Assembly: GCA_018266055.1 (NCBI GenBank)
Contig: JAFDYT010000016.1
Location: forward strand, 122,914 to 180,383
Direction: 5' to 3'
Origin: Bacteroidota bacterium
Lineage (GTDB): Bacteria > Bacteroidota > Bacteroidia > Cytophagales > Cyclobacteriaceae
DNA: 57,470 nucleotides
This document shows positions 20,129 to 44,677 of the stretch, piece by piece. The position numbers and the translations under genes were made by a program. The stretch's first letter is position 1, and every line of letters begins with the position of its first letter. The notes under the pieces were generated by a model. It saw nothing but the letters and a program-made list of their open reading frames with translations. It was not told the DNA's origin and made no database searches.

Positions 20129-20158
20129 TAGGATATATTTATCTTTTATTTAGGTTTG
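20129..20158 (+). promoter_or_regulatory. norZ promoter with AGGATA-N4-TATCTT box
   Basis: TAGGTTTG at 20151-20158 fits the Bacteroidetes -7 element, 21 bp before the norZ start. Upstream, AGGATA (20130-20135) and TATCTT (20140-20145) form a dyad with one mismatch, centred 13.5 bp before the -7 element. Boxes of the same type and nearly the same placement lie before 35046 and 42326. The position between -33 and -7 is more typical of a repressor site. Confidence 0.65.
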
Positions 20159-20179: not shown

Positions 20180-22543
20180 ATGTCGAAAACGAAAGGTTTC
20201 ATTTTTGTGTTTCTTAACTCACGCTATTGGTGGGTTTCATTGACGGTAATTTTTCTGATTAGTTTATTTGGTGTATCTCAGATAGGAATCCATACTTACA
20301 CTGAAGCACCTCCTATTCCGGATTTCAAGGGGCAGGGAGGTGTAATTATCTTTGATTCTCAAAATATCAAATCGGGCCAGCAGGTGTTCCAAAAATATTC
20401 CCTAATGGAATATGGGTCAATGTTTGGAGACGGGGCAAATCGCGGCCCTGACTATACTGCTGAAGCGCTGCATCAAGTTGCTATTTTTATGCAAGATTAC
20501 TATCTTAAGTCGATAGCCACAAGCGCAGAAGACCAAACTCTGCAACGCCATGGGATTGCCGACTTAGTAAAGCGGGAAATCAAGGCCAATAATTACAACT
20601 CTGCGACCAATGCCGTTTTGTTAACCGAGGCGCAGGTATTCGCGGCCGTAGAGTTGGAAAAATTCTACCAAAATGCATTTATGGGCGAAGCTGGAAAACG
20701 ATCTGGAAAGCCTGGACGGTATATTCAGAGTTCAGAAGAGATAAAATCATTAACTGCTTTTTTTTTCTGGGGAAGTTGGGTGTGCGGGGTGGAGCGTCCC
20801 GGAAAAGACTACAGCTACACCCATAACTGGCCGTTTGATCCTGAGGCTGGCAACACTCCTAGTTCTGCAATTATTATCTGGAGTATTATAGGATCATTTA
20901 GTCTTATTTTGGTGCTGGGCGCAGTATTATATTACCATGGAAGATTAGAGAATCTGGACGATGAGACGTTTACAAAAAACGCCCACCCATTAATGACCCG
21001 CAAAGACGTGTCGGCCTTCCGCCCGAATACCTTGCAACGAGCTACCTACAGATTTTTTTACGCTGCCATCATTTTGTTCTCCGTGCAAGTGTTGGCTGGT
21101 ATTTTAACGGTACACGATTTTGTAGGGTTTGTGCGATTTTTTGGAGTTGATGTTTCTGAACTGCTCCCCATAACGATCACCCGTAGCTGGCATGTGCAGC
21201 TTTCACTTCTTTGGATTTCAGCTTGCTGGATTGGCGCCTCTTTATTTGTTATGCCTATGCTGTCACCGAAGCAACCCAGAAGGCAATTACTTTGCATCAA
21301 TATTCTTTTTTCATTGATTGTGGTTTTGGTTGCCGGTGGTTTGGTGGGCATGTTTATAGGCCCGAAAGGATTGGCCGGAGGCAACTGGTACTGGTGGGGC
21401 CACCAAGGGTGGGAATACTTAGAACCGGGAAAAGTGTGGCAAATACTTCTGTACGGAATTTTTGCACTTTGGGTATTCATCCTCTATCGTGGACTTGGGC
21501 CAGTAGTTAGTTTAAAGCAGCCTTGGGCTTTGCCCAACTGGCTGATCTACGCCACCACCTGTATTCTCGTTCTTCTTGCCTCCGGGTTTTTGTTCAATCC
21601 AACAACCAACTTTGTCATATCCGATTTTTGGCGTTGGATGGTCATCCACATGTGGGCAGAAGCATTTTTTGAAGTGTTTACCACCATATTGATCGGATAC
21701 TTTATGGTATTGATGGGTTTAGTAAGTTCACAGGCAGTCACGCGCGTTATCTTTATTGCATGTGTGCTGTTTTTGGGCTCGGGGCTGTTGGGCATTTCCC
21801 ATAATTTTTATTGGAACGCGAAGCCTGTTTTTACAATGGCACTAGGGGCAGTGTTTTCCACTCTGCAAGTTGTTCCTCTTATTTTATTGACTCTTGAGGC
21901 CTGGAGATTTAGGAAACTCCCGCATGCACTTTCGGGTCTCCCTATGGCAAGTACGTCATCTCACGCCTTTGGCTTCCCACAAGTGTTTTTGTTTTTGCTG
22001 GGGGTTAATTTCTGGAATTTTTTTGGTGCGGGACTCATGGGCTTTATCATTAATCTCCCAGTTGCCAACTATTATGAACACGGAACTTACCTGACGGTGA
22101 ATCACGGTCATGCTGCGTTGATGGGGGTTTATGGCAATCTTTCGCTCGCAGCTGTATTGTTTTGTTGTCAATTGATATTTCGCTCTGATAGATGGAATGA
22201 TCAACTAGTTGCTACTGCTTTTTGGAGTATTAATGTTGGTTTGTTGCTAATGGTACTTTTGGATTTGTTCCCGGCAGGGATGCTGCAACTTTCGTCAGTG
22301 ATAGAAAAAGGATTATGGTTTGCCCGAAGCGCTGAGTTTATTGAGAGCACTGCATTTCAGACACTCACATGGCTGCGGATAATTGGAGGTGCAACTTTTG
22401 TGATAGGCGGAGTTATTCCGCTCACCTGGTTTGTGGTCTCAAGAAGTAAAAATCTAAAGAAGCCGAAACAAGAAGTGCGTACGATAAATGGACGGAGCAT
22501 GAATCATTCTGAAATGATGCTGCAAGCTGAAGAAGCTGAGTAA
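20180..22543 (+). CDS. norZ: Quinol-dependent nitric oxide reductase, atypical FeB ligand
   Basis: A 787-residue inner-membrane protein with the qNOR layout: an N-terminal TM, a periplasmic domain ('GQQVFQKYSLMEYGSMFGDG', G-P-D-Y-T-A-E), then about 13 TMs of heme-copper oxidase type. It reduces 2 NO to N2O with quinol electrons. Heme ligands are visible at H338 (S-W-H-V-Q-L) and H642/H644 (N-H-G-H). For the non-heme iron, H490 and E494 (H-M-W-A-E) are present, but the usual H-H pair is H541-N542 (S-H-N-F-Y-W), so one FeB histidine is replaced by Asn. No norC partner nearby, as expected of qNOR. Confidence 0.9.
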   Translation: MSKTKGFIFVFLNSRYWWVSLTVIFLISLFGVSQIGIHTYTEAPPIPDFKGQGGVIIFDSQNIKSGQQVFQKYSLMEYGSMFGDGANRGPDYTAEALHQVAIFMQDYYLKSIATSAEDQTLQRHGIADLVKREIKANNYNSATNAVLLTEAQVFAAVELEKFYQNAFMGEAGKRSGKPGRYIQSSEEIKSLTAFFFWGSWVCGVERPGKDYSYTHNWPFDPEAGNTPSSAIIIWSIIGSFSLILVLGAVLYYHGRLENLDDETFTKNAHPLMTRKDVSAFRPNTLQRATYRFFYAAIILFSVQVLAGILTVHDFVGFVRFFGVDVSELLPITITRSWHVQLSLLWISACWIGASLFVMPMLSPKQPRRQLLCINILFSLIVVLVAGGLVGMFIGPKGLAGGNWYWWGHQGWEYLEPGKVWQILLYGIFALWVFILYRGLGPVVSLKQPWALPNWLIYATTCILVLLASGFLFNPTTNFVISDFWRWMVIHMWAEAFFEVFTTILIGYFMVLMGLVSSQAVTRVIFIACVLFLGSGLLGISHNFYWNAKPVFTMALGAVFSTLQVVPLILLTLEAWRFRKLPHALSGLPMASTSSHAFGFPQVFLFLLGVNFWNFFGAGLMGFIINLPVANYYEHGTYLTVNHGHAALMGVYGNLSLAAVLFCCQLIFRSDRWNDQLVATAFWSINVGLLLMVLLDLFPAGMLQLSSVIEKGLWFARSAEFIESTAFQTLTWLRIIGGATFVIGGVIPLTWFVVSRSKNLKKPKQEVRTINGRSMNHSEMMLQAEEAE

Positions 22544-22614: not shown

Positions 22615-24465
22615 ATGGAACTCAACCAACAAATCTTGAGCGACATTGTCGTTCATATGAAATATGCGCGCTATATCCCTGAACTGCAACGCAGGGAACT
22701 ATGGCCGGAAATATGTGCGCGCTATGAGCTGATGATGATCGGAAAGTATCCGCTTATTGCTGATGAGATTCGTGAAGTCATGCAGTTTGTGCATGAGAAA
22801 AAAGTGTTGCCCTCCATGCGGGCGATGCAGTTTTCAGGTACACCAATCATCAAGAACAACAGCCGTATCTATAATTGCGCTTACATGCCGTTAGATGATA
22901 TCCGTGCTTTTAGCGAGGCTATGTTTTTGTTGCTTGGCGGAACGGGCGTAGGCTTCTCAGTGCAAACGCATCACGTTGCAAAACTGCCATGCATCAGCAA
23001 GGCTCAAAAACAGCGAAGATATTTGATTGGCGACAGCCTTGAGGGCTGGGCAGACTCCATTAAAATGATAATGAAGGCCTATTTTGGCCAAAGTGAAGCC
23101 ATGCCCCAATTCGACTATTCTGACATTAGACCCAAGGGAGCCCGATTGGTGACAGCAGGTGGTAAAGCGCCAGGCCCTGAGCCGCTGAAAGTTTGCCATG
23201 CTCACGTTACGGCAGTGCTTGATAGGAAAGAAAATGGTGAGCGCCTTTCACCACTCGAATGCCACGACATCATGTGCCATATTGCCAACGCGGTGCTGGC
23301 CGGAGGCATACGCAGGTCGGCCATGATTTCTTTGTTTTCGCCAACCGATGAAGAAATGCTAACATGCAAATTCGGCAAATGGTGGGAGCTCAACGAACAA
23401 CGTGGTCGAGCCAATAATTCTGTAGTACTATCTCGCGAGTTTACCACGCGGGAAGAGTTTTCTGAGTTGTGGAAAAAGATTGAATTGTCTGGGGCTGGTG
23501 AACCGGGATTTTATTTTAGCAACCATCCCGACTGGGGCACAAATCCATGTTGCGAAATCGCATTGCGCCCGTTTCAATTCTGTAACCTTTGCGAAATCAA
23601 TGTGTCTGATGTGGAATCTCAGGACGAACTAAATGCGCGCGCACGTGCTGCTAGTTTTCTTGGCACGTTGCAGGCAGGCTTTACTGACTTTCATTATTTG
23701 CGTGAAGTATGGAAGCACACCACGGAGCAAGATGCGCTCATCGGTGTCGGCATGACCGGTATTGCCAGTGGACGTGTGTTCAAGCTGGATCTCCGCGAAG
23801 CAGCAGACGAAGTAAAACATGTAAACTCTGTTGTCTCAAAAAAAATAAATATTGAATTCGCAGCCCGATGCACCACCATCAAACCATCAGGCACAAGTTC
23901 CTTGGTTCTAGGAACATCTTCAGGCATACACGCATGGCATAATGATTTTTATCTCCGAAGAATGCGCATTGGCAAAAACGAGGCGCTGTATGAATATCTC
24001 GCTGCTCATCATTCCGAATTAATAGAGGATGACCTACTCAATAGTAAACAAGCGATTGTGCGCATACCACAGAAAGCACCTGATAACAGTATTCTTAGAA
24101 ATGAAAACGTTATGGATCTGCTTAACCGTATCAAAGCCTTCAACTTGGAGTGGGTGCGCAGCGGGTATCGATTGGGCAATAATGCCAACAATGTATCCGC
24201 TACAGTCTCCATTAAAGATGATGAATGGGAAGAGGTAGGCGAGTGGATGTGGAATAACAAGGCGTCTTACAACGGCCTCAGCGTTCTTCCGTTTGACAAC
24301 GGAAATTATAAACAGGCACCGTTTGAAGATATCACTGCGGGGGTATTTTATGATCTTGAAAAATCTCTTAAAAATATAGATCTCTCCTTAGTGTTCGAAC
24401 CTGATGATGCTACAGACTTGCAGGCGGAAGCCGCGTGTGCAGGCGGAGCATGTGCTGTTGTTTAA
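22615..24465 (+). CDS. nrdJ: Class II (B12-dependent) ribonucleotide reductase
   Basis: A 616-residue enzyme that makes deoxyribonucleotides using an adenosylcobalamin radical, with no need for oxygen. Active-site residues match the monomeric Lactobacillus-type enzyme: C88 (I-Y-N-C), the N-P-C312-C-E314 motif with the third Cys 11 residues after the first (C323), and a C-terminal redox pair C608/C613 (C-A-G-G-A-C). P-S-M-R-A-M-Q and 'GIRRSAMISLF' are family motifs. At 616 residues it is shorter than the 739 of the L. leichmannii enzyme, probably lacking the N-terminal allosteric region. It follows norZ by 71 bp and is likely expressed with it. Confidence 0.88.
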   Translation: MELNQQILSDIVVHMKYARYIPELQRRELWPEICARYELMMIGKYPLIADEIREVMQFVHEKKVLPSMRAMQFSGTPIIKNNSRIYNCAYMPLDDIRAFSEAMFLLLGGTGVGFSVQTHHVAKLPCISKAQKQRRYLIGDSLEGWADSIKMIMKAYFGQSEAMPQFDYSDIRPKGARLVTAGGKAPGPEPLKVCHAHVTAVLDRKENGERLSPLECHDIMCHIANAVLAGGIRRSAMISLFSPTDEEMLTCKFGKWWELNEQRGRANNSVVLSREFTTREEFSELWKKIELSGAGEPGFYFSNHPDWGTNPCCEIALRPFQFCNLCEINVSDVESQDELNARARAASFLGTLQAGFTDFHYLREVWKHTTEQDALIGVGMTGIASGRVFKLDLREAADEVKHVNSVVSKKINIEFAARCTTIKPSGTSSLVLGTSSGIHAWHNDFYLRRMRIGKNEALYEYLAAHHSELIEDDLLNSKQAIVRIPQKAPDNSILRNENVMDLLNRIKAFNLEWVRSGYRLGNNANNVSATVSIKDDEWEEVGEWMWNNKASYNGLSVLPFDNGNYKQAPFEDITAGVFYDLEKSLKNIDLSLVFEPDDATDLQAEAACAGGACAVV

Positions 24466-27416: not shown

Positions 27417-27734
27417 TTATTGTCTTAAAAAATGGCGACCGTGTTCGGATATCCTCTCTTCGTTCCATGGTGGTTCGAAAGTTAGTTCAATCTCAACTTG
27501 ATAACCCTCAAAAGTATTTTGCAGCGCTTCATGAACCCCATCAAGGATCACTTCACCCATAGGGCAAAACTGAGACGTAAGAGTCATCCTGCAAACAATT
27601 TTGCCTTCTTCCAAGTTGAGTTCGTAAAGCAAACCTAAATCGACAATGTTCAGACCAATTTCAGGATCAATAACATTACGAAGCTGCTTCAATGATTGAT
27701 TACAGAATTTCTCGTTGTTGGTTAGGATATTCAT
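27417..27734 (-). CDS. MIP18/SufT-like metal-sulfur cluster assembly protein
   Basis: A 105-residue DUF59 protein: 'LRNVIDPEIGLNIVDLGLLY', then M-T-L-T-S-Q-F-C-P-M-G-E-V-I with the conserved Cys, and 'LTFEPPWNEERISEHGRHFL'. DUF59 proteins such as SufT and CIA2/MIP18 help mature iron-sulfur proteins. In this NO-response operon it may help rebuild nitrosylated clusters. It overlaps the NnrS-like gene by 4 bp and is 4 bp from rrf2. Confidence 0.87.
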   Translation of the reverse strand: MNILTNNEKFCNQSLKQLRNVIDPEIGLNIVDLGLLYELNLEEGKIVCRMTLTSQFCPMGEVILDGVHEALQNTFEGYQVEIELTFEPPWNEERISEHGRHFLRQ

Positions 27735-29011: not shown

Positions 29012-29820
29012 GATTGTTTTTTAAAGATTAACAAATGAACTTCTGTGTCGCTGATTTCGCGGATGCGATAGTTAAATTTACGCTCCTTCAACTCTGGTAA
29101 CAGAAAAACAGGGACTCTTTTATGAAAAACAAATAGTGCATGGTCATCCGGCAGCCTGTCTAATTCCTGTATAATAGTGTGCATCGGCATTGGCATTTCC
29201 ATCTGCCTTACATCTGTCTCAATTATTTTTCCTTCAAAGATTCGCAGTGCTTCATTCCAATTCACGTTGTCGCTTTGCGGTGTCTCAAACTCTATTTCAC
29301 CACTATCCCCCTTATCGAAATAAGTAACCACATAATTTTTACCCATGTGTTCAACATGATGTTTGAAACCTTTTTGTTCGAGAAGTTCAATTAAAGGCAT
29401 AGGTTCAAAACTGTTTATAAGCTTGAATATTTGCCCCTGTTTAAGCTCATTAATTTTTCCCATAATCAGTTTGAAGGGATCTTTACCGGCATCAATAACC
29501 GGACGGACATCTAACTCACTTATCGATTCAACGTTCAAATTTTGCATAAAAGTTGGTTTATGGTCGGTGGTAGTATTGGAAATAGAAACTGAGGCTTTTT
29601 CGAATGTAAAGCCGAACGGCTTCAATTTTTCAGAAAAATCTTCGACTCTACAACCCGAAATCTGACATGCCATTTTAATCGTTGCTCGCGATGCCATTAT
29701 TTTTCGCAATAATGGATTCCGAAGCTTGGTAAAATGGGGCGACAGACTGACAATGGCTTCTAATGCTTCGGGCCGGGCTTTTAATATGACACCAATTTTC
29801 GTATCGCTAGTAACGATCAT
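29008..29820 (-). CDS. DUF1858 and DUF2249 domain protein
   Basis: A 270-residue soluble protein. Residues 5-70 resemble DUF1858 ('IGVILKARPEALEAIVSLSP', 'LLRKIMASRATIKMACQISG'-C), a domain found with hybrid-cluster and NO-related proteins. Residues 95-175 and 195-268 are two DUF2249 modules (E-L-D-V-R-P-V-I-D-A-G-K-D-P-F, later 'LDRLPDDHALFVFHKRVPVF'). DUF2249 is a SirA/TusA-like fold of unknown function. Overlaps ric by 4 bp and the NnrS-like gene by 4 bp. Confidence 0.82.
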   Translation of the reverse strand: MIVTSDTKIGVILKARPEALEAIVSLSPHFTKLRNPLLRKIMASRATIKMACQISGCRVEDFSEKLKPFGFTFEKASVSISNTTTDHKPTFMQNLNVESISELDVRPVIDAGKDPFKLIMGKINELKQGQIFKLINSFEPMPLIELLEQKGFKHHVEHMGKNYVVTYFDKGDSGEIEFETPQSDNVNWNEALRIFEGKIIETDVRQMEMPMPMHTIIQELDRLPDDHALFVFHKRVPVFLLPELKERKFNYRIREISDTEVHLLIFKKQS

Positions 29821-30782
29821 AAAGCTGAGACCATTCTTTTTTCTAATTGAATGGCTTTAGGGAATAGAATATTGTTTTCAAGGTGGATGTGAAGGTGCAG
29901 ATCAGCCTCGAACTCGGCCATCAGCCGGTACAACAAGTTGTAAGAAGCACACGCATCATCCGGGATCGAATAACCATCGGTCGCTTTTCTGATTTCCTCA
30001 AAGTATTTTCCCACCATTTCATGCTCCCTCTCCATCATTGAGATGGGATTGCGTACTGTCCCGAAGGGCGCTGTTACTTTTGATTTAGAGTTGGAGGCCG
30101 CAACGAGCGATTTAATAAATGGAAATAGGATGTGCTCTTCCTTTAAGAGGTGTTCATTGAGTTCTGCTGCAGAAGCCTCAACCAATTCATGCACAAGGTT
30201 CAACTCCGGATGGCGGCTACCATGTACTCTCATCACTTTGTGCGCATATTGTTGCAGATCAGGTAAGTTCTTTTTAATGTAACTATGATGAACCTGTACA
30301 ATATAGTCAGCTAAAAGGTCCAAGCTCCATTCATCATAGAAAAGCTCGCGGCCGGAAGTCTTCAGGTGGTCTGTATGTTGCAGGTCAGTCTCAACAGCTT
30401 CTACATCAATGCCTTTTTCCACGCATGCCTGTTTCAACGTTTTCTTTCCCCCACAGCAAAAATCCAGGCCGTATTTTTTAAAGACCTGTGCTTTGCGAAG
30501 GTCTTCTGCTGCCAGTTGCCCTAGGGTCTTTTCAAGATCACCACTTTTGTTCTTTGAGATCCTTACCTTCCAGATTTCAGGGCCTTGCTCAACGTATTCC
30601 CACTGAAATATGTTTCCACGCTCATTGATCAATTGATAATAGAGTGGCTTGGGGTCATGGTCATTGAGCAATATCAATGACTCATTTTCTTCAAGCAGGT
30701 CAAATTTCTCAAATATGGTTGGATGCTTTAACCTGGGGTCGATTAGGGTTACGTTTAGAGTACTTTCTTCTTTTGTGCTCAT
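29817..30782 (-). CDS. ric: DUF2249-fused iron-sulfur repair di-iron protein
   Basis: A 321-residue protein. Residues 10-75 are a DUF2249 domain ('DLLEENESLILLNDHDPKPL'). Residues 85-140 are the ScdA/RIC N-terminal domain with 'FKKYGLDFCCGGKKTLKQAC', and residues 160-315 are a hemerythrin-like domain with H-H-S-Y-I-K, H-E-L-V-E, L-L-K-E-E-H-I-L-F-P and E-R-E-H-E-M. RIC proteins donate iron to repair iron-sulfur clusters damaged by NO or peroxide. It is the first gene of a seven-gene operon ending with ndh, controlled from the dyad at 30837. Confidence 0.9.
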   Translation of the reverse strand: MSTKEESTLNVTLIDPRLKHPTIFEKFDLLEENESLILLNDHDPKPLYYQLINERGNIFQWEYVEQGPEIWKVRISKNKSGDLEKTLGQLAAEDLRKAQVFKKYGLDFCCGGKKTLKQACVEKGIDVEAVETDLQHTDHLKTSGRELFYDEWSLDLLADYIVQVHHSYIKKNLPDLQQYAHKVMRVHGSRHPELNLVHELVEASAAELNEHLLKEEHILFPFIKSLVAASNSKSKVTAPFGTVRNPISMMEREHEMVGKYFEEIRKATDGYSIPDDACASYNLLYRLMAEFEADLHLHIHLENNILFPKAIQLEKRMVSAL

Positions 30783-32767: not shown

Positions 32768-34225
32768 TTACTTACGTGCCGCCTTTACTTGCTCAGGCTT
32801 TACTTCGCCTCCTTTATTGCCAAAATTGTTGAGTACATAGGTGATTACATAAGATAATTCCTCGTCACTAAATACTTGCTTTGGCATAATATTATTGTAT
32901 TTAGTACCATTCACGGTAACCTCCCCACTTAGCCCATTTGTAACTGCATTAATGATTTTACTCACGTCTTTGGCAAAATAATCCGACTTCGCCAATGGTG
33001 GGAATGCAGCAGGCACGCCTTGTCCTTCAGCTTGATGGCAGGCGATACAACTTTGGGCAAAAATTTGTTTGCCACGTGCAATTCTTTCGTCTAAGGTCTT
33101 GGGGATATTAACGGTCGTCTTTTCGCTTGGAATTTCATGAACACCTCCGCCTTCGGGTGCGTAAATATTGTCCGTTTCTTTTCCGGAATAGATCGCTTTA
33201 TTTTCAGGGCCATCGGCTTTTAACATACCTAGTGCACCTTTGTTAAATGCCCGAGTGATTGAATGATCTACCAAGATATATGTACCCGGTACATCTATCT
33301 TAAACTCACAAACAGTAGCTCCACCCGAGGGTATCAGCGTAGTTTGAACATTATAATTAACTGCCTTAGTACCTCCTTCTATATAAACCTTATCAAAGAT
33401 TTCGCCAATCAAATGAAAGGATGAAACCAAGTTTGGCCCGCCATTTCCTATGAACAAACGCACTGTTTCTCCAACATTTGCTTTCAGTGCATTGTCATCG
33501 GATAGGGAACCTACAGATCCATTAAACACAACATAATCTGGCTTCTCATCTACTTCCTTTTGCATGTCAAAAGGCTGAAGTCCTGCTTCACCATTTTTTC
33601 CCTTGGTGTAGAAGTCACCTTGCATAATATAAAATTCTTTGTCCACTTTGGGCAAGCCCTCCTTTGGTTCTACCAATATCAGCCCATACATCCCCTGCGC
33701 AATATGCATTCCAACCGGGGCGGTGGCGCAGTGATAAACAAATAAACCTTGATTTAATAATTTAAAATTGAACACCGACTCATGACCAGGAGCAGTGAAT
33801 GAAGCAGCAGCCCCACCACCTGGTCCTGTCACAGCGTGTAAATCAATATTGTGGGGGAGCTTGTTATTCGGGCTGTTCTTCAAATGAAACTCAATTTCAT
33901 CTCCCAGGCGGGTGCGGATAAAACTACCAGGTACTGTTCCTCCGAATGTCCAGAAATTATATTCAACTCCACCTGTCATTTTCATGACTTTCTCAATGAC
34001 CTCGAGTTCTACAATCCATTTAACTGGCTTGCGCTTTCCAACTAACTGCCGGGGAACAAATGGAGGGCTTGTAAGTTCAGCCTTACGAGTTTCATGAATT
34101 TCTTCCTTGGCGACTTCAGTAGTCTTTGGCTCATCTGAATCGCTTGATTGTTTTGACTTGCACCCAACGATGGATGATGCAGCAAATAGCAACGCGCAAA
34201 TTGAAATTGTACTTGGTTTTAACAT
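32768..34225 (-). CDS. nirK: Copper nitrite reductase fused to cytochrome c, lipoprotein
   Basis: A 485-residue periplasmic enzyme reducing nitrite to NO. ATG 34225 gives a lipoprotein signal ending S-S-I-V-G-C-K; the frame is open to 34255. Two cupredoxin domains carry the type 1 copper ligands (P-H-N; Y-H-C; G-M-H; Q-G-M) and type 2 copper ligands (D-L-H; V-Y-H; V-D-H-S), with the catalytic Asp in H-N-I-D and His in S-S-F-H. Residues 385-475 form a cytochrome c domain with C-I-A-C-H and N-I-M-P-K as distal Met. The fused cytochrome should feed electrons directly. First gene of nirK-nirV-sco. Confidence 0.93.
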
Positions 34226-34293
34226 AAGTGGTAAATTAAAAATTGAGGACCTCAAGTTTCTCTCTTATAAAAGGATAATTTATTCCGATATAT

Positions 34294-35002: not shown

Positions 35003-35031
35003 AAGGATAATATTATCTTTTATTACCTTTG
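35003..35031 (+). promoter_or_regulatory. Promoter of the 607-residue gene with AGGATA box
   Basis: AAGGATAAT (35003-35011) and ATTATCTTT (35012-35020) form a near-perfect dyad whose core is AGGATA-N4-TATCTT. TACCTTTG at 35024-35031 is an exact -7 element, 14 bp before the start codon. The box centre is 12.5 bp before the -7 element, much as before norZ and spt. Confidence 0.65.
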
Positions 35032-35045
35032 CTAAAACAATTACC

Positions 35046-36869
35046 ATGAGCACTTCTAACCACACCTTTCACATCCCCGTTATGGGATTAGCTTTTACCA
35101 TAGACTCTCCAATAAAAGTCGCGCGTTTTGGCATTTCATCTGTTATTTCAATTGTTGAAGATAACTTGATTGAAAAAATGCGGCAATACTATTATGGACA
35201 ACGCAATGAACCATATACACCCATTACAAATAAGATGCATGATCATCGCGCCAGGCGGATAACGGACTATCTGAATCTCGTTCATCGGATCGTAAAAGAT
35301 CAGCTTCAGGAAATGACAAAACAATCGTTTGAGAAAGGTAGTGAGTTATCTAAGTATTTCGAAATGTTGCCGAGCCATCATAGTTTGCATCGTCTCTTCA
35401 AAACGATGATGAGCACAGATGCCGCCCCTCAAAAAGTAACAATAGGGAATTACTTAAGGCAGCAAGTAAAGCCAGGCTCTATTGATGCTAACATTATGAC
35501 CAAGCTCGATCGAAATCAAGTTGATGAAAATGGCAATACAGTTCCAAATTCTTCCGATGCTCTCAGTGCCCTCAGAGGATATGCTAATAGCACGCTTGAC
35601 AATTCTTCAATTGTGCTTTCCGCTGGGATGAACCCTAGACTTTTCAATTATATGGAGACACTCCCCTCGTTCGATCGGAATGAAAACGGAGAATTTGGCA
35701 AAAAGATCATTATTAAGGTTTCTGATTATAGGTCAGCCTACATCCAAGGAAAGGTATTGGCAAAGAAAGGACTTTGGGTGAGTGAGTTTCGAATAGAATC
35801 GGGTCTGAATTGTGGAGGGCACGCATTTGCAACAGACGGGCTTTTGATCGGCCCTATTCTTGAAGAATTTAAAAACAAAAGAAATTCGCTTGTTCAGGAG
35901 CTATTTGGGCTTTATAACCGTGCCCTGGCTGAAAAAGGAAGAAGGTGTCATCCTTCGGCACCTGCTCTTTCGATTTCTTTCCAAGGTGGTATTGGCACGG
36001 CCGATGAAGATGAATTCTTGAGAAATTACTATGGCATTGACAGCACTGGCTGGGGTACCCCATTTTTGTTGGTGCCTGAAGCCACCACAGTTGACAACCC
36101 TACCTTAAACCTTTTAAGCAAAGCTACCGAGGCTGACATTTTTTTAAGCAAAAACTCCCCATTGGGAATTCGATTTCATTATTTGAGAGGCACCTCGGCT
36201 GAAAATGAAAAATTCAATCGCATCGAAAAAAAAAGACCGGGCAGCCCTTGCACCGAAAAGTACCTTGAATCAAATACAGAGTTTACTACTGAGCCTATAT
36301 GCACCGCCTCAAGGAAATATCAGGAACGGAAAATAGCCCAACTTCAAAGCTTGGATTTGCCACAAGAAGAATATAAAAGGCAAGTACAAGAGGTGTTAGC
36401 CAAGGAGTGCCTCTGCATTGGGTTAAGCAATGCAGCGGTAAACAAATATCATTTGAAACCTTTCAAAAAATTAGACGCTGTGAATATTTGCCCTGGTCCC
36501 AACATCGCCTACTTTTCAAAAATCCTTTCATTGCAAGAAATGGTTAACCACATCTATGGAAAGATCAATGTGATCACGCATAAATCACGCCCTTCGATTT
36601 TCATCAAGGAGCTTTCTCTTTATCTCGATTACCTAAAAGAAATGATTGCAAAAGCCAGACAAGCGGTGGATGAAAAGAATGAAAAACAAATACAAACTTT
36701 TCAAAAGAATATTAGCGAAGGCGTGGCCTACTATAAGGATCTTTTAGGAAAAATGGACAACCAAAAAATTGAGTTGGCTGCCAAATTGCAAGAAGGTCTG
36801 GATGAACTGGAGAATCAAATTCTTAAACCTATTTTTTGGTTCTGCGATGCGGCTTCTACCTTGAAATAG
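35046..36869 (+). CDS. Conserved protein of unknown function, TIM-barrel-like
   Basis: A 607-residue soluble protein. The start has 'IPVMGLAFTIDSPIKVARFG'-I-S-S-V; the middle has G-L-N-C-G-G-H-A-F, then F-Q-G-G-I-G-T-A-D-E-D-E-F-L and 'GWGTPFLLVPEATTVDNPTL', a glycine-rich loop order resembling the phosphate-binding end of FMN-dependent TIM barrels such as nitronate monooxygenase. The C-terminal third has clustered cysteines (C-T-E-K, I-C-T-A, E-C-L-C-I-G, I-C-P-G-P-N) that could bind an iron-sulfur cluster. Its promoter carries the same box as norZ, so it belongs to the island's NO/anaerobic regulon. Reaction unknown. Confidence 0.7.
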   Translation: MSTSNHTFHIPVMGLAFTIDSPIKVARFGISSVISIVEDNLIEKMRQYYYGQRNEPYTPITNKMHDHRARRITDYLNLVHRIVKDQLQEMTKQSFEKGSELSKYFEMLPSHHSLHRLFKTMMSTDAAPQKVTIGNYLRQQVKPGSIDANIMTKLDRNQVDENGNTVPNSSDALSALRGYANSTLDNSSIVLSAGMNPRLFNYMETLPSFDRNENGEFGKKIIIKVSDYRSAYIQGKVLAKKGLWVSEFRIESGLNCGGHAFATDGLLIGPILEEFKNKRNSLVQELFGLYNRALAEKGRRCHPSAPALSISFQGGIGTADEDEFLRNYYGIDSTGWGTPFLLVPEATTVDNPTLNLLSKATEADIFLSKNSPLGIRFHYLRGTSAENEKFNRIEKKRPGSPCTEKYLESNTEFTTEPICTASRKYQERKIAQLQSLDLPQEEYKRQVQEVLAKECLCIGLSNAAVNKYHLKPFKKLDAVNICPGPNIAYFSKILSLQEMVNHIYGKINVITHKSRPSIFIKELSLYLDYLKEMIAKARQAVDEKNEKQIQTFQKNISEGVAYYKDLLGKMDNQKIELAAKLQEGLDELENQILKPIFWFCDAASTLK

Positions 36870-36954: not shown

Positions 36955-37395
36955 ATGTTTTCAAAAGCTTGCGAATATGCTATCAGGGCAGCACTGTACA
37001 TAGCCATTCGAAGTGCCGATGGTACCAAATTGAACGTGCCTGAAATTGCCCGTGAAATTGACGCTCCACGGGCATTCACTGCAAAAGTTCTTCAGGTTTT
37101 AGTTCGGGAAGGGATGATTCAATCAGTAAAAGGACCAAATGGGGGTTTTTTCATTAAGCAAAAATCAAAGCCTGTTTATCTAAACTCAATTGTTCATGCT
37201 ATTGATGGACAGGATATTCTACAAACCTGTGTGTTAGGGTTAAAAGAATGTTCGGACAAATTTCCGTGCCCTGTTCACAACGAGATAAAATCAAGCAAGC
37301 ATCAAATGCGTGACATTTTGAGGGGAAAGACGGTTCAAGAATTGGCCAACGAATATGCAAAAGGCAAAACTTTTCTGAAAAACTATAAACTTTAA
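36955..37395 (+). CDS. Rrf2 family regulator, second copy
   Basis: A 146-residue winged-helix protein with 'SKACEYAIRAALYIAIRSAD', 'IDAPRAFTAKVLQVLVREGM' and wing 'SVKGPNGGFFIKQ'. Three cysteines spaced C-x6-C-x5-C (T-C-V-L-G-L-K-E-C-S-D-K-F-P-C-P-V-H) should hold an iron-sulfur cluster, as in NsrR or IscR. A small palindrome, CTAATTTATTAG (36902-36913), precedes it and could be an autoregulatory site. It follows the 607-residue gene by 85 bp and is convergent with nadB. Confidence 0.87.
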   Translation: MFSKACEYAIRAALYIAIRSADGTKLNVPEIAREIDAPRAFTAKVLQVLVREGMIQSVKGPNGGFFIKQKSKPVYLNSIVHAIDGQDILQTCVLGLKECSDKFPCPVHNEIKSSKHQMRDILRGKTVQELANEYAKGKTFLKNYKL

Positions 37396-37415: not shown

Positions 37416-39008
37416 TTACTTATTCGGCAATGCAGCCACCCCCACTAAATCGACATTATAAAACGTGCCTTGATTCACTTTTTTGTTCATCGAATCTTCC
37501 ACAACCATCTGTGCAACTGTAACGAGGTTTCTAAGTTCGCATGTGTCAACAGAAATTGCATGATTACGATAATCCGCTTCCACTACTACTTTTAATTTCA
37601 ATATCTTAACGAGAGCTTCCCTTAAACCGACATCGGATCGCACAATTGCGGCCTTCTTGCTCATTAGCTCGTTGAGTTCAGCTCTAAGAAGTTTCACATT
37701 CAGGGTTGTACTACAATCAGTATCACTTACTCTAAATGGTTGAGGTTTTTGTTCTGTAAAATCCAGTTGACTGAGTTTTTCACTAATGTCGATGAAGCAA
37801 TGATGAGCATACACCATGGCCTCCAAAAGGGAATTGGATGCCAACCTATTTGCGCCATGCAGGCCGGTGCAGGCGCATTCACCACACGCATACAACTTGT
37901 CAATCGATGAACGACCTTTAAGATCAACGTCAATACCACCGCAAAAATAATGAGCGGCTGGCTCTACAGGTATCAAGTCCTGTTGTGGATCTAGTTTATT
38001 AATCTGGCACTGCTCAACGATGGTCGGGAATTTCATTTTAAGATCAGCTTGATCTAAATGACGGCAGTCAAGAAATATGTAATGGTCATTACTTTTCTTC
38101 TCTTGTTCTATTGCGCGGCTTACGATGTCGCGCGGAGCCAACTCTCCACGAACATCATATCTAAACATAAAACGTTCTACCTGTGCATTTACAAGATGCG
38201 CCCCATATCCTCGCACTGCTTCTGAAATTAAAAACGAAGATCCTTTGCCAGATGAAGAAAATCCTGTGGGATGAAATTGAACAAACGCCATGTCTTTAAT
38301 GCGCGCGTGAGCACGATGGGCCATCGCAACACCATCACCGGTGGCGATGGCCGGGTTCGTGGTTGTTCGATACACCTGACCTGCGCCCCCAGTGGCAAGA
38401 ATTGTAACTTTTGAAACATAGGTCTCAATCAAACCAGACTCTTCGTTTAACACATAGGCACCTAAACATTTCGTCCTCCAATCGCTTCCGGTACTTTTTT
38501 CTTCAGAAACCGCAGTGATTAGATCCAGTGCAAAGCGATGTGATGCTATTTTCAAATTTGATAGGGTTGCCGCTTTTCTTAACAAAACAATTTCTAGGTG
38601 CAATCCGGTAAAGTCCTTTACGTGAACGATTCTTTTTGCGGTATGACCTCCTTCCAGGCCAAGGCTCAATTCACCTGTTGCAACGCGATCAAACTCGGCT
38701 CCCCATTCGATGATTTCGTTTAGTCGTTCTTGGGCTTCATTAATTACCATTTCCACCACATTTTTGTCGCATGCCCCACCGCCAGCGAGCAATGTGTCGT
38801 CAATATGCTTTTCTAATGAATCATTTAATAAATCGATCACTACCGCGATTCCGCCTTGTGTATATCGAGTGTTTGATTCGTTGGAATTTTTTGTGATGAC
38901 AACAACACTATGTTGGGGAAAAGCTTGCGCAAGCTTGATGGCCGCGGTTAGGCCGGCTATACCCGACCCAATAATCAATACATCAACTTCATTATAGTTT
39001 TCCTTCAT
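37416..39008 (-). CDS. nadB: L-aspartate oxidase
   Basis: A 530-residue flavoenzyme that oxidises aspartate to iminoaspartate, the first step of de novo NAD synthesis, using O2 or fumarate as acceptor. FAD motif: 'VDVLIIGSGIAGLTAAIKLA'; substrate region 'NTRYTQGGIAVVIDLLNDSL', E-G-G-H-T-A-K-R-I-V-H and R-G-E-L-A-P-R-D-I-V-S-R-A-I; later 'HYFCGGIDVDLKGRSSIDKL'-Y-A-C-G-E and 'ANRLASNSLLEAMVYAH'. Full length for the family. Last gene of the norC-norB-queD-nadA-nadB operon, 3 bp after nadA. Confidence 0.92.
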   Translation of the reverse strand: MKENYNEVDVLIIGSGIAGLTAAIKLAQAFPQHSVVVITKNSNESNTRYTQGGIAVVIDLLNDSLEKHIDDTLLAGGGACDKNVVEMVINEAQERLNEIIEWGAEFDRVATGELSLGLEGGHTAKRIVHVKDFTGLHLEIVLLRKAATLSNLKIASHRFALDLITAVSEEKSTGSDWRTKCLGAYVLNEESGLIETYVSKVTILATGGAGQVYRTTTNPAIATGDGVAMAHRAHARIKDMAFVQFHPTGFSSSGKGSSFLISEAVRGYGAHLVNAQVERFMFRYDVRGELAPRDIVSRAIEQEKKSNDHYIFLDCRHLDQADLKMKFPTIVEQCQINKLDPQQDLIPVEPAAHYFCGGIDVDLKGRSSIDKLYACGECACTGLHGANRLASNSLLEAMVYAHHCFIDISEKLSQLDFTEQKPQPFRVSDTDCSTTLNVKLLRAELNELMSKKAAIVRSDVGLREALVKILKLKVVVEADYRNHAISVDTCELRNLVTVAQMVVEDSMNKKVNQGTFYNVDLVGVAALPNK

Positions 39009-39016
39009 ATCCCGCT

Positions 39017-40012
39017 TTATCTATTCTCCATCTCCGGCTTTGATAGTTCTAGCATGCGCTGGATAGGTAAGATCGCTTTATGACGAATCGTGTCGGGAAT
39101 ATGTATCTCGTGCCGCTCCTCGACTAAACAATGGTAGAGATTCTCTAGTGTATTCATTTTCATGAACCCACATTCGCTGCATGCGCACGTATTATTTTCA
39201 TTGGAAGGAGCAGCAAGCAACTCCTTATGAGGAGCCGCTTCCTTCATCTTGTGCAAAATACCAGCTTCCGTGGCTACGATATATTTTTGTGCCTCGTCAT
39301 TCCGAGCATAATCGATCAGGGCCGCAGTAGATCCAATAAAATTGGCAACTTTCAAGATGTGACCCTCAGCTTCAGGATGAGCAATAATTTTTGCATCAGG
39401 ATGTTGCTGGTAAAGGTTGAGTAATTTGTCGATAGCGAACGATTCATGGACGATGCAGCTCCCATGCCAAAGCTTCATTGTTCGACCTGTTTTTTCAATT
39501 AGGTAGCGGCCTAAGTTTTTGTCTGGAGCAAAGATGATGGGTTGCCATTCGGGAATGGAATCGATAATTCTCTCTGCATTGGATGAAGTGCAGACAAGAT
39601 CACTCATAGCTTTGATTTCTGCCGAGCAATTGATGTAGGTAACAACAAGGTGCCCAGGATTTTCGCTGATAAATTTTTTAAAGCCAACAGGCGGGGCAGA
39701 GTCGGCCAGGGAACAACCCGCTTCCAACGTGGGTACAATTACCTTTTTTTCGGGATTCAAAATTTTGGCTGTCTCGGCCATAAACAGAACCCCCGCAAAA
39801 ACAATAATATCCGCGCTGGTTCCAGCTGCTTGCTGCGAAAGCCCCAAACTATCTCCCACGTAATCGGCTAAATCCTGAATTTCGGGAACCTGATAGTAAT
39901 GAGCCAGAAGAACTGCGTTTTTGGACTTCTTCAGTTCTCTGATTTTGTTCTGCAATGCAGGCTGGTCCACATTCGTAGCCAAACGATGCCCTCTGGTTTC
40001 CACCCGGCTCAT
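39017..40012 (-). CDS. nadA: Quinolinate synthase
   Basis: A 331-residue [4Fe-4S] enzyme that condenses iminoaspartate with dihydroxyacetone phosphate to quinolinate. Motifs: 'KNAVLLAHYYQVPEIQDLAD'-Y-V-G-D-S, 'VPTLEAGCSLADSAPP', 'TYINCSAEIKAMSDLVCTSS', W-H-G-S-C-I-V-H and C-A-C-S-E-C-G-F-M-K-M-N. The conserved cysteines (G-C-S-L, I-N-C-S or V-C-T, S-E-C-G) supply the cluster. The frame is open to 40069, but ATG 40012 overlaps the queD stop as ATGA and gives a normal N-terminus, so it is preferred. Confidence 0.92.
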   Translation of the reverse strand: MSRVETRGHRLATNVDQPALQNKIRELKKSKNAVLLAHYYQVPEIQDLADYVGDSLGLSQQAAGTSADIIVFAGVLFMAETAKILNPEKKVIVPTLEAGCSLADSAPPVGFKKFISENPGHLVVTYINCSAEIKAMSDLVCTSSNAERIIDSIPEWQPIIFAPDKNLGRYLIEKTGRTMKLWHGSCIVHESFAIDKLLNLYQQHPDAKIIAHPEAEGHILKVANFIGSTAALIDYARNDEAQKYIVATEAGILHKMKEAAPHKELLAAPSNENNTCACSECGFMKMNTLENLYHCLVEERHEIHIPDTIRHKAILPIQRMLELSKPEMENR

Positions 40013-40455
40013 AAAGGAAATGAATTGGGTTTGTTGATCCATTCTGCATAGGAGTCTTTCGTTTCCCAAAGGATGAGTCGTTGAAGCTTAACCGTATCGG
40101 GTATCTGTGTTTGTATCCGATCCCTGAAGTAGATCACCAAATTTTCAGCGGTTGGTTCAGCATCCATAACTAACAGTTCATCCTCATTTACAGCGACAGC
40201 TCGCTTCTTAACGCTCGTTTTTGAAAGCAACAGTTTATGATCGAATTGATTAACCACCTCTAAAACTATTTTTTTTAAGTCTTTAAAATCGTAGATGATG
40301 CCCAACTTTTCGATATAAGTTGACGTATCCACATCTTTTGAGATTACCGTTACATGCAGTTCGTACGAATGTCCATGAATGTTGGCGCACGCACCCGGAT
40401 ATTCATGAATGGCGTGCGCAGCATCAAACCTGAAAATTTTTGTTAATGAAATCAT
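40009..40455 (-). CDS. queD: 6-carboxy-tetrahydropterin synthase/PTPS family
   Basis: A 148-residue enzyme of the QueD/PTPS family: 'IFRFDAAHAIHEYPGACANI'-H-G-H-S-Y-E-L-H-V, where His, H-G-H and the nearby Cys are the zinc site and catalytic thiol, then 'GIIYDFKDLKKIVLEVVNQF'-D-H-K and 'PTAENLVIYFRDRIQTQIPD'. QueD makes the queuosine precursor from dihydroneopterin triphosphate. Placement between nor and nad genes is not explained by queuosine. ATGA overlaps join it to norB before and nadA after. Confidence 0.87.
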   Translation of the reverse strand: MISLTKIFRFDAAHAIHEYPGACANIHGHSYELHVTVISKDVDTSTYIEKLGIIYDFKDLKKIVLEVVNQFDHKLLLSKTSVKKRAVAVNEDELLVMDAEPTAENLVIYFRDRIQTQIPDTVKLQRLILWETKDSYAEWINKPNSFPL

Positions 40456-41831
40456 TCGACTGCTGGTTGAATCTTCAACTTGAGACTTAAAAAGTTGACT
40501 GCACTACAAGCCAGAGCATTCTTCATAATAGGATAGACAATGACAATAAAACTTGCAAAGAGCGCAACTCCTGACAGGGCAAATACCAAAAAATAAGGTA
40601 GCGATTCGTTCATCATGACCGAGAAAGGTATTGTACGATCACTCATTTGCCAATGCGTGCGTTTAATGCCCGCCATCGTTAGCGCAGTGACAAACACGAG
40701 CAAAGAAATGTTGGCCGAGATCAGCCCCGCTGTGATCTGTCTTTGATACGATAGCAAAGAACCACACGCTTTGTTCATAACATCGGTAATCACGGCCAGT
40801 AATATCATTGAGTTGATTCCGATGGTCGCGCCCATCACATGAGCAACGGTGATGTGCGTGCCGTGCGTGTAGAGGTTAATTCCCGGTACTGAAATAAATA
40901 TGGCCAACGAAAGGTTGATGAATATCCACAAATCTGCAGCCATTAAAAACCTGCAAGGAAGCAGATGCCTGTACCGCAATGCAGAAGTTACAGTAGCCTT
41001 CCATTTATAAATAATTCGTCCTAATATAAAAAGTTCCGTCATGCTGATCAGATAACCCAGGTGTTTAACAAACGATGCCGCTGGAAGTGTATAAATATGG
41101 TGACTCCAATTGAACATCAGGTTTGTCAAACCAATGAAGAATAGCAAAAAACTCACTCTCGAACGTGCGTAAGTTTTATCCCCTGAAATTTTCTGCATTA
41201 AATAAATGCTGGAACCGTAAATCAACATATTCCAGCACCCCACCATTGCTCCATACGATTTCCATTGCACTGACATATCACGAACAATATTTCTTTGAAA
41301 GTAGGGGAATAACCACAGGTATGATTCCGAAAACGTGATCAGAAAGCCAACTGCCCCCGTGATCCACATCCAAACATATACCGGTCGATCTTTCAACTTC
41401 TTTGTTGACCGAACGACATTGATCGTGAACAAAATCCAACCGGCCATTACCGGAATAGCCAGCACCGGATGAAACTCCCAATATTCCCTTCCACCAAAAA
41501 TGCCGATCGAATAGGAGACCAGGATAGCTACCACTGATACTAGAAAAACAATCCATTGTCCTTGTGTCAAGCGATTTTGATCAATCTTGCCCGCTAGCTC
41601 ATCAAGGTAAGACAGGGTGCCGCCCGTGGCGGCCATCAGAATCCAAAAAATAGCAGAAGTGACATGGAGAGGTCTTATCTTTTCAAAGGATAAAAAAGTC
41701 TTATACAATCCGGGGACTACATATTGAAAACTACCAATAACTCCAAAAGTCATCGCCAGCAGAAGCATGACGAGGGCTGATAGAATAAGTTTTTTCGGAG
41801 GAGAGATATTAGTTTGAGGCAATCGTTCCAT
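40452..41831 (-). CDS. norB: NorB-like heme-copper oxidase subunit, atypical ligands
   Basis: A 459-residue membrane protein with about 12 TMs, partner of the norC-like gene upstream. H56 (R-P-L-H) is a low-spin heme ligand, H244-H245 (S-H-H-I-Y) match two FeB histidines and H331 (V-A-H) the high-spin heme ligand. Where cNOR has H-x3-E for FeB, this protein has Y193-G-A-M-V197, so that His and Glu are missing, and H-G-H near the end is H331-V-M333. It is thus NorB-like by context and fold, but an NO reductase activity is inferred. ATG 41831 is used; the frame is open to 41882. Confidence 0.75.
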   Translation of the reverse strand: MERLPQTNISPPKKLILSALVMLLLAMTFGVIGSFQYVVPGLYKTFLSFEKIRPLHVTSAIFWILMAATGGTLSYLDELAGKIDQNRLTQGQWIVFLVSVVAILVSYSIGIFGGREYWEFHPVLAIPVMAGWILFTINVVRSTKKLKDRPVYVWMWITGAVGFLITFSESYLWLFPYFQRNIVRDMSVQWKSYGAMVGCWNMLIYGSSIYLMQKISGDKTYARSRVSFLLFFIGLTNLMFNWSHHIYTLPAASFVKHLGYLISMTELFILGRIIYKWKATVTSALRYRHLLPCRFLMAADLWIFINLSLAIFISVPGINLYTHGTHITVAHVMGATIGINSMILLAVITDVMNKACGSLLSYQRQITAGLISANISLLVFVTALTMAGIKRTHWQMSDRTIPFSVMMNESLPYFLVFALSGVALFASFIVIVYPIMKNALACSAVNFLSLKLKIQPAVE

Positions 41832-42207
41832 TAAGGTTAATTTTAAATCTCCGCGGATCAGATCGCCCCGTCTCATCCACATGCTTAAGAAATTCGATGA
41901 GCGATTTCAATTCATTGTCAGAGAGGATAAAAGCGGGCATTGTTGCCGTACCTCCTTGAACAAAAGATTTTATATAATCAGGGCCTTTAGCTGAGTAGAT
42001 ATTGGTAAGATCCGGCCCAAGGAAGCCACCTAGACCATACAACTGATGACAGGCTGTGCAATTTTTCTTTTGCCATATCATTTTTCCGGCCTGCACAGCT
42101 GGGTCGCTACCGTCCGTGGTGGGCGTCAAATAGATGTGGCCCGAATAGACTCCGAAAAGGCAAACCAGCAACACTAAGACCGCTCTTCGAATCATAAACG
42201 ATTGCAC
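41809..42207 (-). CDS. norC: NorC-like membrane-anchored cytochrome c
   Basis: A 132-residue protein with one N-terminal membrane segment (residues 5-26) and a periplasmic class I cytochrome c domain: 'KMIWQKKNCTACHQLYGLGG' with C-T-A-C-H for heme c and T-A-T-M-P-A-F as the distal Met loop. This is the usual build of NorC, which passes electrons to NorB. It overlaps the norB start by 23 bp. Starts at 42207 or at Met5 (42195). Divergent from spt across a shared regulatory region. Confidence 0.85.
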   Translation of the reverse strand: MQSFMIRRAVLVLLVCLFGVYSGHIYLTPTTDGSDPAVQAGKMIWQKKNCTACHQLYGLGGFLGPDLTNIYSAKGPDYIKSFVQGGTATMPAFILSDNELKSLIEFLKHVDETGRSDPRRFKINLNGTIASN

Positions 42208-42263: not shown

Positions 42264-43540
<1,277 letters not shown>

Positions 43541-43545
43541 GTGCA

Positions 43546-44667
43546 ATGAGTTTGCAAATCAAGGAAGTCTTAACCAAACGACAGCTAAAAGACTTTGTCA
43601 ATTTCCCCTATAGCTTGTATAAGGCCAATCCTTTTTTCGTACCCCCATTGCGGTTTGATGAAATGGCCACCTTGCGAAAGGATAAAAATCCGGCATTTGA
43701 TTACTGTGAAGCACGCTATTGGATGGCCTACCGCGATGATGTGCCCGTGGGGCGGATTGCCGGTATCATTAATCATGCCTTTATTGAAAGATGGAATAAA
43801 AATTATGTCCGATTTGGTTGGATTGATTTTATTGAGGATAAATCAGTTGCGCTGGCACTACTTTCTCAAGTTGAGAATTGGGCGAGCGAAAGAAACATGG
43901 AAGCCATTCATGGTCCATTGGGATTTACTGACCTAGATCACGAAGGGATGCTAGTGGAGGGCTTTGATAAGAGGGGTACCCTTGCCACGATTTACAACTA
44001 TTCTTATTACCCGCGCTATGTGGAAGAATTGGGATACGCCAAAGATGCAGACTGGCTCGAATTCTTAATTAAAATTCCGAAGGAGGTTCCTAAAAATCTC
44101 GAGCGCATAACAGAACTGGTCAAAAAAAGATTTCAATTACAGATCGTTCGATTGCGCAAGCCGAAAGATATATTACCCTATGCCCAACAAATATTTCAAC
44201 TCATCAATATTGCTTTTGCCGAACTCTATGGGGTAGTGCCGCTCACCCAGCGACAGATGGACTACTATACACGTCAATACTTTTCATTTATTAGAACTGA
44301 CTATGTTTCGTTAGTTACAGACCACGAGGGGAAACTGGCAGGGTTTGGCATCACTATGCCATCTCTTTCCAAGGCTCTTCAAAAAGGCCAAGGACGTTTG
44401 TTGCCCTTCGGGGCGATACACCTTCTTAAAGCGCTGCACACCAATACAATCATTGATTTATACCTGATAGCCATCCGGCCTGATTTGCAAGGTAAGGGGG
44501 TTAACGCCATCATTATGAGTGAAATCACCCGTTCATGCATACGCAATGGAATTCAGTTTGCCGAAACCAATCCCGAGTTGGAAAAAAATAACAAAGTTCA
44601 GGCGCTGTGGGAATATTATGAAGCACTTCAACACAAGCGAAGAAGATGCTACATTAAGTACCTTTGA
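43546..44667 (+). CDS. GNAT-fold acyltransferase, probable bacterial ceramide synthase
   Basis: A 373-residue cytoplasmic protein. It begins 'QIKEVLTKRQLKDFVNFPYS'-L-Y-K and has an acyltransferase core: G-P-L-G-F-T-D-L-D-H-E-G, 'TIYNYSYYPRYVEELGYAKD', 'IDLYLIAIRPDLQGKGVNAI' and 'FAETNPELEKNNKVQALWEY'. Proteins of this family encoded beside spt and an epimerase-like reductase act as bacterial ceramide synthase in Caulobacter, N-acylating the long-chain base. The identification rests on family and operon. Starts at ATG 43546, just after the spt stop; GTG 43537 is an alternative. Confidence 0.75.
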   Translation: MSLQIKEVLTKRQLKDFVNFPYSLYKANPFFVPPLRFDEMATLRKDKNPAFDYCEARYWMAYRDDVPVGRIAGIINHAFIERWNKNYVRFGWIDFIEDKSVALALLSQVENWASERNMEAIHGPLGFTDLDHEGMLVEGFDKRGTLATIYNYSYYPRYVEELGYAKDADWLEFLIKIPKEVPKNLERITELVKKRFQLQIVRLRKPKDILPYAQQIFQLINIAFAELYGVVPLTQRQMDYYTRQYFSFIRTDYVSLVTDHEGKLAGFGITMPSLSKALQKGQGRLLPFGAIHLLKALHTNTIIDLYLIAIRPDLQGKGVNAIIMSEITRSCIRNGIQFAETNPELEKNNKVQALWEYYEALQHKRRRCYIKYL

Positions 44668-44677
44668 TTTTTTTGTA

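Follow-up and report, generated by a model that had tools for sequence, protein, structure and literature searches.

The kynurenine route to nicotinamide adenine dinucleotide (NAD) includes three O2-dependent steps, which nadA and nadB bypass in yeast, with L-aspartate oxidase (NadB) able to use fumarate, as set out in PMC8262920. The same work describes anaerobic fungi in which a NadB–NadA bypass, an aspartate route, takes the place of the three O2-requiring steps and the kynurenine route has been lost. In bacteria, the two NAD routes are nearly exclusive of each other, according to PMC4217691. Nitric oxide (NO) metabolism offers further points of comparison: in cNOR (NorCB), a cytochrome c and a heme-copper subunit are encoded by overlapping genes. 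The NO regulons of NsrR/Rrf2 type combine a three-Cys Rrf2 regulator, encoded next to nirK, RIC and other NO genes, with a palindromic, A+T-rich operator. NO dismutase (NOD) is a qNOR-like protein with Asn in place of an FeB His and Gln in place of the catalytic Glu (PMC3413370). A lost quinol-binding site and the formation of O2 and N2 from NO also characterise NOD.

These systems meet in the stretch analysed here (the window), 57,470 nucleotides of a Bacteroidota bacterium of the family Cyclobacteriaceae (assembly GCA_018266055.1, contig JAFDYT010000016.1, positions 122,914 to 180,383), in which norC-like, norB-like, queD, nadA and nadB genes form one minus-strand series, from 42207 to 37416, placed inside a nitrite/NO gene cluster. 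In contrast to the anaerobic fungi, both NAD routes are kept here, and the anaerobic one sits among NO genes. It seems probable, at roughly 0.7, that nadAB provides NAD independently of oxygen as part of an NO/anoxia regulon under Rrf2 control; the observations behind this reading are the gene content, the single copy of nadA, the mutual avoidance of the two routes, the repeated linkage of nadA to NO genes and a shared operator sequence.

All five genes described by the first-pass annotation are present on the minus strand, and each is recognised by family models. The norC-like gene (41809..42207) encodes a membrane-anchored cytochrome c with one CxxCH motif (CTACH; PF13442 2.5e-11, PF00034), the norB-like gene (40452..41882, likely start 41831; PF00115 1.7e-32) a heme-copper superfamily subunit with an incomplete FeB site, queD (40009..40455; PF01242 3e-30) a PTPS-family protein with a CxxxHGH motif (CANIHGH), nadA (39017..40069, likely start 40012; TIGR00550 8e-113, NF006878 2e-128) quinolinate synthase, and nadB (37416..39008; TIGR00551 3e-144, over the cut-off) L-aspartate oxidase. 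NadA passes its family model (TIGR00550, 376.6 bits, cut-off 262.9) and, by eye, has the three putative cluster Cys in CSLADSA, GSCIVHE and CACSECG. NadB passes the NadB model (TIGR00551, 481.5 against 452.75) and falls below that of SdhA/FrdA (TIGR01812, 351 against 567). QueD scores just short of its equivalog (TIGR03367, 85.8 bits against 89.25), and CX3HGH, the motif of QueD (6-carboxytetrahydropterin synthase), occurs in 13/13 cluster QueDs compared, the second copy of the host included. The junctions are largely as first annotated: norC and norB overlap (likely norB Met at 41831, norC end at 41809), norB and queD have ATGA in common (40452-40455), as do queD and nadA (40009-40012, provided that the NadA start is Met20 of its open reading frame, ORF, as listed), and the nadA–nadB gap is 8 bp rather than the 4 bp first given.

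The complete order recurs in one relative (G001; L032/L042), and norC-norB with queD and nadA nearby is found in three others (G013, G024, G028); thus, the arrangement goes beyond chance and is a real operon, probably read as one transcript. As counter-evidence the annotation had named a simply ancestral order, with no further nadA or nadB in the host and no nor genes next to these genes in relatives; the first part holds, the host having no other copy, and the second fails, since relatives have both nor and NO genes adjacent to nadA.

In the host assembly (4.79 Mb, 21 contigs), nadA is single, as no second NadA match is found there, and there is one clear nadB, the other NadB match being 28% identical and unclassified. 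The host has three further PTPS-family genes in addition to queD: of the four, CANIHGH is found in the two that adjoin a norCB-like pair, and CX5HGH in the remaining two. The second norCB-like pair lies on host contig 17 (L038) with its own serine palmitoyltransferase, epimerase, queD, rrf2 and 607-aa genes, and no nadA occurs within its 18 kb stretch. Replacement of another NadA by the operon, as had been suggested, is not supported, since the host has none; a bypass of the oxygen-dependent kynurenine route, whose genes are present in the same genome, is likelier. Kynureninase (9.5e-140), HAAO (7.9e-76) and an FAD (flavin adenine dinucleotide) monooxygenase gene, taken for KMO, stand side by side on host contig 17. 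With HAAO as the marker of the oxygen-requiring route, 34/36 same-genus genomes searched contain it (as fragments in G013 and G014), and the two without it are G004 and G019 (77% and 84% complete). NadA is rare in the genus (6/36); among 58 genomes in all, HAAO is found in 51, NadA in 8 and NadB in 5.

At the level of the order Cytophagales (a draw of 390 genomes, NadA and HAAO lists compared by eye), NadA occurs in 119/390 and HAAO in 252/390, and both in 25/390, against ~77 expected by chance (Fisher p 7.6e-33, avoidance). The near exclusivity reported in PMC4217691 is to be compared with these 25 dual genomes, in 17 of which nadA lies by NO genes. The surroundings of nadA were examined in every one of the 25 duals and in 68 out of 94 genomes with NadA only, with RIC, DUF2249, NnrS-like, nirK, 607-aa ORF, norB-like and NOD-like genes as primary NO markers within 6.5 kb. 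A marker accompanies nadA in 17/25 dual genomes and in 0/68 NadA-only loci (p 6e-13), and five further same-genus dual genomes are all linked (5/5). The 607-aa ORF is a marker solely through linkage here, and only one of the 17 linked genomes (G301) hangs on it. NAD synthesis genes together with NO genes, as the annotation had it, are therefore a tie that recurs in relatives.

Ten linked genomes of family f13 share the order ric-hhe-DUF2249-nnrS-like-rrf2-nadA-nadB. Their NadA proteins are 35-39% identical to that of the window in the comparison of nadA surroundings and 39-43% in the order-wide search, and the pair in one example (G348) is recognised as NadA and NadB by family models. In a quick NadA tree of 98 rows with several long branches, the linked label requires 6 changes, at least 2 of them forced by well-supported branches, which suggests that the linkage was recruited independently, with two dissimilar NadA types.

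A candidate control element precedes the operon. A 16-bp perfect palindrome, AGGATAAAATTATCCT (42264..42279), lies 57 bp upstream of norC and 46 bp upstream of a divergent serine palmitoyltransferase gene, and this site is its sole exact copy in the 4.79-Mb genome. We propose that it is an Rrf2-type operator, AGGATAA-N2-TTATCCT. Similar sites in the window are found before the 607-aa ORF (35004..35019, 1 mismatch), before the NOD-like gene (20130-20145) and, in weak form, before nirK (34272..34287, 3 mismatches; matrix score 13.6, itself a training site). The window holds 6 matches at ≤3 mismatches against 3.1 expected, a number equalled by 10/100 shuffles, so that number by itself does not reach significance. 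Relatives, among them two Chryseobacterium records, have comparable sites at comparable distances upstream of the 607-aa-ORF, NOD-like and norC genes, and it is this positional recurrence, not the site count, that gives weight to an operator. Scanning the genome for regulon members by counting mismatches to the palindrome proved weak and was set aside, several of 15 sites inspected lying within genes.

Moreover, some nadA genes of relatives have an operator-like site of their own. A matrix trained on sites upstream of the 607-aa-ORF and NOD genes only, with a threshold of 14 chosen after the scores were known, gives 17.2 to 20.8 before nadA in G292, G013, G026 and G024 and 14.8 in G361 (5/22 linked), and no score ≥14 in 8 unlinked duals or 68 NadA-only upstreams, among which the best is 8.0. 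In the window and in G001, nadA has no site of its own, as would be expected for a gene within an operon, and in G028, the only site is weak and lies before norC. Among 398 unlabelled background genes, 16 score ≥13; in 12 of these a labelled gene shares the site, and in the other 4 none does.

The protein that might bind such sites is encoded at 36955..37395 (plus strand), a three-Cys (C-x6-C-x5-C) Rrf2-family regulator (TIGR00738, 89.0 bits against 73.3), and Rrf2 genes are near the module in relatives too. It is a candidate NO/redox-sensing repressor, which resembles NsrR in its three Cys, in its position by nirK, RIC and NO genes and in the palindromic A+T-rich site proposed for it. It differs from NsrR in that it lies far under the equivalog model (PRK11014, 35.2 against 182), reaching only the Rrf2 superfamily cut-off, and in that its proposed targets would include NAD synthesis.

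Other enzymes that work without O2 lie near nadA. An oxygen-independent ribonucleotide reductase (class II or III) occurs within 8 kb in 5/22 linked and 0/76 other loci; control stretches reach ~6.6 kb on each side, and at 6.5 kb the linked count is 4, the gene of G013 being 6.7 kb away. NrdD and NrdG (class III) adjoin nadA in G313, G361 and G389, and class II is near it in G026 and G013; in the window, a class II (adenosylcobalamin-type) gene (22615..24465, plus strand; TIGR02505 264 bits, below the cut-off of 340) directly follows the NOD-like gene. A tyrosine phenol-lyase/tryptophanase-type gene, possibly for oxygen-free breakdown of aromatic amino acids, is near in G001, G013 and G028. 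Genes of this type are also seen by the NOD/NorCB cluster of relatives, at L037 10473-13295, L032 1832-4616 and L036 1-780.

In the proposed mechanism, the cell would in air make NAD from tryptophan by the kynurenine route, with O2 used at three steps. On nitrite respiration, NO (or the loss of O2) would relieve the Rrf2-type repressor at AGGATAA-N2-TTATCCT; NadB would then oxidise aspartate with an acceptor other than O2, such as fumarate, and NadA would make quinolinate, leading to NAD without O2. Sister members of the regulon, a class II or III ribonucleotide reductase and perhaps tyrosine phenol-lyase/tryptophanase, would be further oxygen-independent stand-ins. QueD and the NorCB-like complex are not explained by this scheme. 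For QueD, which recurs near nadA in G292, G361, G389 and G165, both queuosine supply under NO and another pterin remain as candidate roles.

Several points weigh against this reading. Eight of the 25 duals (G319, G355, G037, G232, G206, G262, G165, G237) have no primary NO marker by nadA; among them, G355 has rrf2 beside nadB, G165 has queD only, and G237 is a 4.4-kb contig, several control stretches (e.g., L193, L242, L252, L253) also ending at contig ends. Ten of the 17 linked genomes form a single clade of f13, the duals come for the most part from other families than the NadA-only genomes, and 67/68 controls are outside the host family f1. Within f1, 6/8 duals and 0/1 NadA-only genomes (G277) are linked, and both f19 duals (G206, G232) are unlinked, as are the f19 controls. 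Because of this family confounding, the Fisher values overstate the evidence, and our confidence has been lowered for it; markers were also sought with the proteins of the window, so that distant families are possibly under-detected. In most genomes, HAAO alone serves as a proxy for the entire route. nadB was not found at E≤1e-50 in G013, G024 and G026 (L037, L039, L138), all with nadA in an NO cluster, and is not near nadA in G292, so the routes of these four genomes appear to lack a known first step. As for the operator, enrichment in the genome at 2 mismatches is modest (26 against 17 for the reversed pattern), the site before norC scores ≥16 in only 11/25, shuffled upstreams reach ≥14 in 5/1960, and 17/22 linked cases, f13 included, have no operator before nadA. 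Moreover, the NOD-like protein might itself supply O2, and the iron-sulphur cluster of NadA is NO-sensitive.

The NO sensitivity of enzymes also underlies the alternative that survives best, in which NO inhibition, and not lack of O2, is the cause. Iron dioxygenases are NO-sensitive, and NO would poison those of the kynurenine route, heme-dependent and non-heme alike, causing a switch to NadB–NadA during NO exposure even with O2 present. The linkage being to NO genes (RIC, nirK, Rrf2 and others) agrees with this, and the neighbouring RIC could repair the cluster of NadA. However, that cluster should be at least as NO-sensitive as the dioxygenases, and the nearby oxygen-independent ribonucleotide reductase genes point to O2 as the missing item; we regard NO inhibition as improbable.

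The alternative put forward by the first-pass annotation, in which NorCB removes NO and so protects the NadA cluster, or the operon replaces NO-damaged NadA, depends on what the NorB-like protein is. Profiles place it in the heme-copper superfamily (4xyd 8.1e-23, 3o0r 4e-19, CcoN 3.4e-18), and its model (predicted local distance difference test, pLDDT, 81.5) has the cNOR/CcoN-like fold by Foldseek (CcoN 1.9e-11, cNOR 8.7e-11). With cNOR, the pair shares the cytochrome c and heme-copper subunits and the overlapping genes. It differs from cNOR, in which three His (one of helix VI and the HH pair of helix VII) and the helix-VI Glu hold FeB and two His hold the low-spin heme b: in an alignment of 30 rows from 26 distinct loci (4 copies or fragments), with 28 to 30 rows filled at key columns, the helix-VI FeB/CuB His is replaced by an invariant Gly (G211), the FeB Glu near helix VI is missing (a gap) in all aligned rows, and every row has Met (M350) at the position of the second heme-b His. 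The HH pair (H261/H262), H73, the heme-b3 His (H348) and the helix-VIII Glu are kept; the roles of these ligand residues are partly assumed. A control, the cNOR of G292, retains HLWVEG and HH. The NorB-like protein could not be matched to the active-site letters E, N, Q and D of newer NO reductase (NOR) families (among eNOR, sNOR, gNOR, nNOR and bNOR) given in PMC8756737. Loss of the FeB ligands and of the heme-b His makes NO reduction by the NorB-like protein doubtful; an ordinary NO reductase is improbable, an unusual one conceivable, its heme b could be His/Met-ligated, and the family resembles NO reductase and probably should not count as one.

The distribution of this family bears on protection as well. 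A norC match adjoins norB in every NorB-like locus examined. From other Bacteroidota records, 15 NorB-like loci were surveyed over at most 10 kb to either side (L046-L060, L055 and L056 being shorter): norC is beside norB in 15/15, queD is present in 4/15 (one at 29% identity) and nadA in 1/15 (L058, ~6.5 kb from norC); no NorB-like gene stands beside nadA in 16/17 linked duals. In the same genus, a NOD-like gene occurs in 7/9 NorB-like genomes against 3/27 others. The shared operon here and in G001 speaks for NorCB protection, and a genuine cNOR norB (5.5e-112 to 3o0r) some 6-7 kb from nadA in G292 makes NO removal close to nadA conceivable in that genome. With the FeB ligands missing, nadA single in the host and the two genes so seldom together, neither a protecting NO reductase nor a specific partner of NadA is borne out, and this alternative is very unlikely. 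A tentative idea, on balance doubtful, is that the NorCB-like pair is a new heme-copper branch with its FeB site dismantled and a His/Met heme b, which may act as an NO sensor or cytochrome c-linked electron conduit serving anaerobic cofactor synthesis, with a QueD pterin for the NorCB-like complex, in a regulon that would swap to oxygen-independent enzymes on an NO cue.

Least probable is hitch-hiking, in which nadAB is carried on mobile denitrification islands with no functional tie: a patchy distribution, a NadA tree mixing linked and unlinked rows and a conjugative-transposon TraJ gene in the window would fit it, but the linkage goes with the O2-dependent route (17/25 against 0/68, partly family-confounded), two dissimilar NadA types were recruited, and an operator-like site precedes nadA itself in five genomes. 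The TraJ-type gene, of the Bacteroides conjugative transposon kind (16965-17657, PF07863 2.6e-19), lies a few kb from the NOD-like gene and hints at past or present mobility of part of the window.

The remaining cluster contains several genes of nitrite and NO metabolism. The NOD-like gene (20180..22543, plus strand) encodes a qNOR-like protein with the His-to-Asn and Glu-to-Gln changes of NO dismutase described in PMC3413370, a likeness of sequence. The signature (SHNFYW, STLQV) is present in all 10 same-genus homologues, the window's own included, those of the 9 other genomes being 64-77% identical to it. No clear ordinary NOR was found among the other COX1-family genes of the host, two of which (C2, C20) were left unchecked; these high-scoring genes are assumed to be oxidases. 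Conversion of NO to N2 and O2 by the host is conceivable.

On the minus strand follow a putatively NnrS-like gene (27731-29011), whose product has only a partial COX1 match in Pfam, a DUF2249-like gene, as labelled in the analysis, after RIC (29008-29820), a RIC/ScdA-type iron-sulphur repair protein fused to DUF2249 (29817..30782; PF04405, PF10006, PF01814) and nirK, whose product is a copper nitrite reductase that carries a cytochrome c domain (32768..34255; TIGR02376 350.7 against 296.3; PF00034). The 607-aa conserved protein (35046..36869, plus strand) belongs to no known family, without Pfam or NCBIfam match. Its gene adjoins the Rrf2 gene in same-genus loci holding both, and many loci show it in linkage with that gene and with the NorCB-like module. 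Its AlphaFold model is of low confidence (mean pLDDT 56), and weak Foldseek matches to PfaD/FabK/nitronate monooxygenase suggest that it is possibly an FMN (flavin mononucleotide) TIM barrel. The idea that it is a UfaA-like anaerobic unsaturated-fatty-acid enzyme gained no support in a literature search and was dropped. Divergent from norC (42326-45685) are serine palmitoyltransferase, acetyltransferase and epimerase genes, presumably a ceramide-synthesis-like set, and the intergenic operator region is common to both sides. Rfam and tRNA scans of the window gave no matches.

No prior report of this arrangement was found in an open-access literature search, judged from search results only. The findings bring to notice a conserved family of NorB-like proteins, akin to NO reductase and probably to be counted apart from it. 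Moreover, genomes with markers of both NAD routes occur repeatedly, and the likely reason is that the oxygen-free route sits with NO/nitrite genes. This provides a testable case in which a cofactor pathway is swapped together with the electron acceptor, and the context of nadA might predict anaerobic competence in supposed aerobes.

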